Shown one piece after another: positions 8,411 through 8,798 of a stretch of 24,428 bases of DNA (position 1 is its first letter; each line of letters starts with the position of its first letter). This DNA is from a virus. Location of the stretch: positions 1 through 24,428 of the IMG/VR virus record IMGVR_UViG_3300005577_000083; one strand, given 5' to 3'. Made by a program: the position numbers and the translations under genes. Below the pieces are notes generated by a model. That model was not told where the DNA came from. It worked only from the letters and a program-made list of their open reading frames with translations, and made no database searches.

Positions 8411-8539
8411 ATCGGGCAACAGGGTGAAACGGCAACGTAGGCGCTCTATCCGCTGAGCTACGGATCTCACGACCCGGAGGGATTCGAACCCCCGACCTCC
8501 CGCTTACAAGGCGAAGTAACCGTCGCTAACAGCACCGAC
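8411..8539 (-). ncRNA. yrlA: Y RNA-like unit 3 with circularly permuted tRNA-like domain (YrlA type)
   Basis: Read on the minus strand from 8539 to 8411. The ends form a Ro-binding-type stem: TCGG/CCGA, a bulged U, then GC/GC, followed by conserved GGTGCTGT and TGTTGCCC. A second helix pairs ACGGT with GCCGT. Inside lies a tRNA mimic with rotated order. The T arm comes first (8477-8493, GGGGG-TTCGAAT-CCCTC). Next is an acceptor-like helix CGGGTC/GATCCG closed by a GTGA tetraloop (8461-8476). Then come TA, as at tRNA positions 8-9, and a D arm GCTC-AGCGGATA-GAGC (8443-8458). The anticodon stem position is taken by a CGCCTAC/GTAAGCG helix leading into the Y stem. It lies 27 nt upstream of the Ro60 ATG. 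The layout matches my knowledge of bacterial YrlA RNAs, which tRNA-modifying enzymes can recognise. Confidence 0.85.
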
Positions 8540-8568
8540 ATTACGCAACGCGAACGCAAGACATCGAT

Positions 8569-8702
8569 ATGGGCAACAGACGAAACCGGTATGAAGGTTG
8601 GACTCGAACCAACGACCTCCGGGCTATCGACCCGGCGCTCTACCGCTGAGCTACTCGCCCTGTAGTGTGGTGAGCGAAGTAACCGATCTCTGACAGCACC
8701 AT
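8569..8702 (-). ncRNA. Y RNA-like unit 2 with tRNA-like domain in normal order
   Basis: Read on the minus strand from 8702 to 8569. The terminal helix is ATGG/CCAT, bulged U, GC/GC, within GGTGCTGT and TGTTGCCC. The inner stem GAGATCGGT/ACCGGTTTC is 9 bp. Residues 8660-8590 form a nearly complete tRNA cloverleaf: GGGCGAG, TA, D arm GCTC-AGCGGTA-GAGC, anticodon arm with loop TCGATAG (anticodon GAT), and T arm GTTGG-TTCGAGT-CCAAC. The 3' acceptor strand is CTTCATA, which pairs with only three of seven acceptor bases, no CCA is encoded, and position 33 is C. It therefore cannot be a normal tRNA. Alternatively, upstream TTCGCTC can pair all 7 bases of GGGCGAG, giving another permuted fold. Confidence 0.8.
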
Positions 8703-8713
8703 CTTTACCTCAC

Positions 8714-8798
8714 GCCTGGGCAACAAGCGCTTGCGGTTTGGACCGAAGTCCATCGTTCAACCAATGTACGAAGTAACCGCTTGCAAACAGCACCAAGC
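8714..8798 (-). ncRNA. Y RNA-like unit 1, minimal form without tRNA domain
   Basis: Read on the minus strand from 8798 to 8714. The terminal helix GCTTGG/CCAGGC is followed by the bulged U and GC/GC, within the conserved GGTGCTGT and TGTTGCCC elements. GCGGTT pairs with AACCGC to form the inner stem. The 5' strand has the shared CGGTTACTTCG element. The loop region holds a tight hairpin GGAC-TTCG-GTCC. No D or T arm is present. Genomes with several Y RNAs often pair a tRNA-like one with simpler ones, which fits. It is the promoter-proximal unit, and the predicted transcript start coincides with its first base. Confidence 0.75.

Follow-up and report, generated by a model that had tools for sequence, protein, structure and literature searches.

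Three units in the genome of a tailed phage share a closing stem of the Y RNA type just upstream of a gene for the Ro60 protein Rsr, and two of them, units 1 and 2, hold tRNA-like domains that are opened at different places. We consider it likely that the units are noncoding Y RNAs that the phage makes together with its Rsr, with the closing stem binding the protein and the far end serving as an exchangeable effector. As read from its sequence, unit 1 is of the YrlA type, a known arrangement, whereas unit 2 is a differently cut one.

The window, meaning the whole stretch of 24,428 nt that was analysed, is a 24.4-kb linear virus record that carries SU10-type portal and terminase genes. Its terminase shares at most 42% identity with those of the phages among the best matches listed, and a DNA search with positions 7000-12000 found no match in phages. 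The units, encoded on the minus strand, are flanked by a gene at 9584-8913 and by a gene on the same strand at 6971-8383, which encodes 470 aa and starts (at 8383) 27 nt downstream of the array. This gene is rsr, encoding the bacterial Ro60. Its reading frame, taken from 8470, scored above the cut-offs of the Pfam models TROVE (48.4 bits, cut-off 23) and VWA_2 (34 bits, cut-off 27) and just missed that of vWA_Ro60 (26.7 bits, cut-off 27.7), and it also matched PHROG 850, an RNA-binding protein (176 bits), and was related to the solved TROVE proteins 9l5y/9kop in the PDB (E 5e-25). The presence of a Ro60 gene directly downstream supports the initial annotation, which had likened the unit ends to Y RNA stems. 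An Rsr relative is encoded in 90 phage records, and Rfam YrlA matches, all below the gathering score, were found just upstream of rsr in 15 of the 17 viral relatives first collected.

The array comprises, on the minus strand, unit 3 (8714-8798), a short closing stem and loop without tRNA module, in which no T or D arm was found; unit 2 (8567-8704), whose closing stem surrounds an acceptor hairpin followed by D, anticodon and T arms (type P3); and unit 1 (8410-8540), which holds an anticodon arm, T arm, acceptor hairpin and D arm inside its closing stem (type P1, YrlA-like). All three are closed by a helix with a single unpaired U next to GC/GC, and all contain the boxes GGUGCUGU, CGGUUACUUCG and UGUUGCCC. 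The initial annotation had claimed that the terminal helices differ between units and still pair around an unpaired U next to GC/GC, which we could confirm on the minus strand, where the ends read GCTTGG-T-GC...GC-CCAGGC in unit 3, ATGG-T-GC...GC-CCAT in unit 2 and TCGG-T-GC...GC-CCGA in unit 1. The elements GGTGCTGT, CGGTTACTTCG and TGTTGCCC, which it had called identical with 6-7 nt between the first two, are indeed identical across units 1 to 3, in agreement with a repeat listing, and the spacing is 6, 7 and 7 nt. Animal Y RNAs carry a bulged C in the Ro60 helix; the units resemble them in having a closing helix with one bulged base and a Ro60 partner, but differ in that this base is a U, and no match to Rfam Y_RNA was listed for them. 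The unusual part of the locus, namely the tRNA modules in units 1 and 2, lay outside what that annotation had found.

The closing stem was evaluated in 146 distinct units from 89 loci that were picked by sequence anchors only and not by pairing, with overlapping anchors counted separately, window unit 3 included twice and window unit 2 included with a one-off anchor. In the helix outside the unpaired U, 86.4% of cells pair, against a mean of 51.6% (maximum 57.5%) with shuffled partners, and 102 of the units possess a perfect 5-bp closing helix, against a mean of 7.2 (maximum 16) after shuffling. Pairing fell to 34-43% when the helix was slid by 1-3 nt and to 36.2% in the register that pairs the U instead of bulging it. 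Each of the five pairs is seen as G-C, C-G, A-U and U-A, such that the compensatory change previously seen within this one locus is also found among its relatives. An RNAalifold consensus likewise leaves the U unpaired and has changes on both sides at all 16 pairs, a result that leans towards a stem because its units were picked with a pairing rule. A covariance model, R1, for which 49 short Y units from other loci and no window sequence were used, matched unit 3 (47.7 bits, E 5e-11) and unit 2 (about 36.7 bits, E 5e-8) in a search of the whole window, which returned nothing beyond these two up to E 10; a match to unit 1 (32.2 bits, E 2e-8) required an unfiltered search confined to 541 bases. 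The pairing test and R1 together reveal that the 5' and 3' ends of the units form a conserved stem common to other Y RNAs. Single-sequence folding energies of the three units were not significant (z of +0.76, -0.89 and -1.58), and the minimum-energy fold of unit 1 differs from the Y fold. The stem and boxes exceed chance, and the observation of a shared Y-type stem is confirmed.

Such an array, which directly precedes rsr and shares its strand, might instead be a cis-acting leader that controls the translation or stability of the rsr mRNA, all the more as a strong terminator-like hairpin at 8849-8873 separates it from the preceding gene. We regard a leader as very unlikely, as the array consists of several independently closed units, the precedent of bacterial Y RNAs is trans-acting, and crAss001, cr106_1 and Microcystis phage Mvi-JY20 have stem matches downstream of rsr. 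In the two crAss-like phages these Y RNA-like stems are found just downstream of the TROVE gene, at 3912-3993 of the crAss001 locus (34.2 bits) and 3952-4025 of the cr106_1 locus (35.6 bits). The hairpin at 8849-8873, GC-rich on the minus strand and followed by T-rich sequence, probably terminates the gene that precedes the array, so a separate promoter for the array is likely; a search of 8350-8950 gave no sigma-70-like one. Just upstream of the array, positions 8818-8836 form a perfect palindrome, CTGTTGCAA-T-TTGCAACAG, which occurs once in the window, where even with up to 3 mismatches no copy would be expected by chance, and is a possible operator for the array.

Returning to the Y RNA reading, we surveyed the modules of such units with a scan using pairing rules, which gave 420 distinct units in 192 loci. 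No tRNA arms were present in 215 of these, while 119 were of type P1, 76 had a T arm only, 5 were called P2 by the script (4 after reading), 3 were P3 and 2 had a D arm only. P1, for which a closing stem was required in all 119 units, has the YrlA order of T arm, acceptor hairpin and D arm. Unit 1 of the window follows it and reads as a circularly permuted tRNA whose cut point falls between the D arm and the anticodon arm, with an Rfam YrlA match of 37.2 bits (E 1.3e-6; gathering score 69) and, by eye, a 5-bp anticodon arm, UUCGC-CUUGUAA-GCGGG. An anticodon stem with 5/5 pairs precedes the T arm in 48 of the 119 P1 units, against 10% of shuffled segments, and 40 of these 48 have a 7-nt loop with U33, which makes the full order anticodon-T-acceptor-D. 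We had taken the anticodon arm to be a feature of P3 only, which was wrong, since many P1 units have one whose 5' strand is the conserved UUC. NCCA follows the acceptor 3' strand in 6 of the 119 P1 units, and in 3 of the 55 with a consensus D arm.

In type P2 the tRNA module is cut in the D loop. L181, one of the script's calls, was removed on being read as P1, and four strict units remain with the order GAGC-anticodon-T-acceptor-TAGCTC (L114 2809-2950, L137 406-542, L159 2833-2972 and L185 2778-2910), in the first of which no acceptor hairpin pairing was seen. Further D-loop-cut units, for example in L157, L188 and L196, were recognized by eye only; most of these, and two of the four strict units, come from Acidobacteria. 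Several P1 units contain tRNAs annotated in GenBank, namely a tRNA-Gln of phage CcrColossus (L034 1631-1698), a tRNA-Ser of Kikimora (L037 2275-2349) and a tRNA-Thr of 10KY502B (L039 2307-2374), and these annotations look mistaken. A search of viral contigs for the pattern GGTGCTGT-N-CGGTTACTTCG gave 13 stretches that were not counted as Y RNAs because none has a 3' box in reach and 11 of the 13 are the same sequence.

Unit 2 has another order. It begins with a capped acceptor hairpin (8654-8678, minus strand; 7/7 pairs, with ACCA in place), in which the acceptor 3' strand UUCGCUC (8678-8672) is joined to the 5' strand GGGCGAG (8660-8654) by the loop ACCACACUACA (8671-8661). Continuing on the minus strand, there follow U8-A9 and the D arm (8637-8653, 4/4 pairs, within an Rfam tRNA match), an anticodon arm of CCGGG/CCCGG around the loop UCGAUAG, which lacks U33 (8619-8635, 5/5 pairs), and the T arm GUUGG-UUCGAGU-CCAAC (8597-8613, 5/5 pairs). 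This order, capped acceptor-D-anticodon-T, corresponds to a tRNA opened between the T arm and the acceptor. The Rfam tRNA model matches the body only (48.4 bits, positions 6-65 of 71), and the body ends do not form a tRNA-type acceptor, as only 4/7 pairs form with the strand after the T arm. ARAGORN found no tRNA in unit 2, and this result, the acceptor pairing and the order of the arms lead us to reject plain tRNA genes for units 1 and 2.

One could still take these two units for decayed tRNA genes or debris of a tRNA array, with the common boxes left over from duplication, given the Rfam match to unit 2, the GenBank tRNAs inside similar units of three phages, and the resemblance of P3 to the junction of two tandem tRNA genes. 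Such debris is, however, highly improbable: unit 3 has the same boxes without any tRNA, the closing stem covaries across loci, and unit 2 has in place of canonical acceptor pairing a 7-bp upstream acceptor hairpin, a 7/7 feature that we saw in only 6 of 152 ordinary tRNAs.

The reading of unit 2 as a Y RNA with a permuted tRNA gains from its recurrence, as the P3 order was found in 10 viral loci: the window, L014, L060, L041 (Rhizobium phage RHph_TM21B, the one Rhizobium phage record covered), L208, L210, L216, L223, L298 and L281, the last being ambiguous (hairpin 6/7, canonical acceptor 6/7). The acceptor sequences vary across these loci, and intact pairs number 68/70 in the acceptor hairpin, 40/40 in the D arm, 49/50 in the anticodon arm and 50/50 in the T arm. 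A linker of 2 to 8 nt that shows no conservation follows CCA. As MAFFT alignments of P3 misplaced the acceptor strand, no model was built from them. Rsr is encoded downstream of the P3 unit in the window, L014, L060, L041, L298, L208, L216 and L223 and in the same record, far from the unit in contig coordinates, in L281; no Rsr/TROVE gene was found in L210, a 54-kb viral record, which has at 5053-5472 an array of the P3 unit and two further Y-like matches.

A context-free scan of 5.39 million bases (both strands of the collected loci), which ignored Y context, gave 256 distinct D-anticodon-T bodies. Eight of these have an upstream hairpin of 6-7/7 pairs with CCA in place and form fewer than 6 canonical acceptor pairs, and all eight directly follow a Y box, four of their loci having been collected with a Y-box pattern and the other four (the window, L014, L060 and L041) without it. 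In L208, L210, L216, L223 and L281 the D arm and Y box are not independent observations, because the collecting pattern contained UUACUUC and a consensus D arm; the window, L014, L060, L041 and L298 were collected without that pattern. CCA and acceptor pairing formed part of no collecting pattern, and L298 and L281 were picked by reading 28 candidate rows, hairpin included. Another unit from the scan, L081, proved to be P1. L200 (from 5440) and L283 (near 638) have a tRNA body of normal order with its own 7/7 canonical acceptor inside a Y-like stem and were left out of the P3 count; the former lies about 15 kb from its rsr.

What is kept and what drifts within P3 bears on two further explanations. 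NCCA directly follows the acceptor 3' strand in 9 of the 10 P3 units (L298 has ACUC), against 3 of the 55 P1 units with a consensus D arm (Fisher p 7e-8), while the anticodon loops vary in both length and sequence, only 2 of 10 having 7 nt and U33. P3 could have arisen by the recent capture of tRNA genes from host or phage, with a CCA that is a functionless relic, and its rarity, including its absence from the 80 bacterial rsr loci scanned (we saw it only in viruses), and the occurrence of NCCA in some P1 units fit that view. We lean against it while regarding it as a serious possibility, because the anticodon loops have drifted and NCCA has stayed, next to a linker that is not conserved. The modules could alternatively be decoys for host anticodon nucleases that protect phage tRNAs, in line with the suggestion in PMC7790460 that YrlA competitively inhibits an anticodon nuclease, and with the anticodon stems and U33 loops retained by so many P1 units. 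Decoys seem to us improbable, since one meant for a single nuclease should keep its loop, and P3 keeps the acceptor end instead.

Our interpretation as Rsr-bound Y RNAs has precedents, and both the Y RNA kind and YrlA as a permuted tRNA are already known. The literature describes YrlA as matching a tRNA in permuted order (PMC11472068) with D, T and acceptor arms (PMC8394870), names PNPase as a partner of Y RNA and Rsr in Deinococcus (PMC12282133, PMC7790460, PMC8394870), and reports PNPase tethering or tRNA modifications for other bacterial Y RNAs (PMC8394870). It also shows that both bacteria and phages have Y RNAs next to rsr (PMC12282133), with phage rsr genes near Y RNAs or candidates in mycobacteriophages, Listeria phage CKA15 and jumbo phages (PMC12282133, PMC7824862, PMC7765460); the window resembles these phage systems in having rsr and nearby Y RNAs on a phage genome, and the excerpts of the same three papers make no mention of several tRNA permutations in a locus or of a CCA-bearing one. 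Unit 1 shares with YrlA (RF02553; Salmonella YrlA, PDB 6CU1) its closing stem, adjoining rsr and permuted T/acceptor/D module. The locus differs from YrlA in the score of unit 1 below the Rfam gathering threshold and its additional anticodon arm, in the cut of unit 2 between T and acceptor with NCCA kept, and in the lack of a tRNA module in unit 3. No description of several permutations or of the P3 order appeared among the papers listed in searches of the open-licence literature, a scope outside which the main Y RNA papers fall; judged on that literature, the P3 arrangement seems undescribed, and an earlier mention is possible.

Permuted tmRNA genes run from the acceptor 3' strand through CCA and a linker to the acceptor 5' strand. 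Unit 2 is alike in placing acceptor 3' strand, NCCA, linker and 5' strand in that order, with the strands pairing 7/7, but P3 differs from two-piece tmRNA in lacking a tag-coding piece, carrying D and anticodon arms and sitting in a Y stem. The two-piece tmRNA of alphaproteobacteria has a permuted gene, and RNase P and tRNase Z probably process its precursor (PMC3985003). One of the collected loci (L007, 1162-1453) encodes a phage-borne alphaproteobacterial tmRNA (134.8 bits) in a tRNA array that precedes the Y units by about 1.3 kb.

In the mechanism that we propose, Rsr would bind the closing stem together with its unpaired U, the GC/GC and the inner boxes that are conserved, and the part beyond UUACUUC would be the effector end: a plain loop in unit 3, a YrlA-type permuted tRNA in unit 1, and in unit 2 a tRNA permuted in another way that has a capped acceptor and NCCA of its own. 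The Rsr-RNA complex would deliver a partner that binds tRNA or degrades RNA to the RNAs present in the infected cell. The units are presumably transcribed, and their binding by Rsr is very likely; recruitment of PNPase or another tRNA-recognising partner has perhaps an even chance, and for a separate job of unit 2 the balance is similar. That three RNAs combine a common stem with three heads suggests three partners or three presentations of tRNA, and the retention of acceptor, NCCA, T and D in P3 while its anticodon loop drifts points to readers of the acceptor end. A bolder and rather unlikely extension is that Y RNAs have sampled at least three tRNA cut points (the D/anticodon junction, the D loop and the T/acceptor junction), so that Ro60 presents different ends, and that P3 is processed like a two-piece tmRNA. 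P3 would then be cut in its NCCA loop, by RNase P on one side and by 3' trimming on the other, to give a tRNA with a real CCA end clamped on Ro60 that may serve as bait or undergo charging or end modification.

If these proposals are true, some phage tRNA annotations beside rsr would be Y RNAs. Rhizobium phage RHph_TM21B (P3) and Caulobacter phage CcrColossus (P1) are isolates in which this could be studied. One phage would possess tRNA mimics that are cut differently, with CCA kept in one and lost in another, and if so, removals of single elements would show which tRNA end the partner reads.
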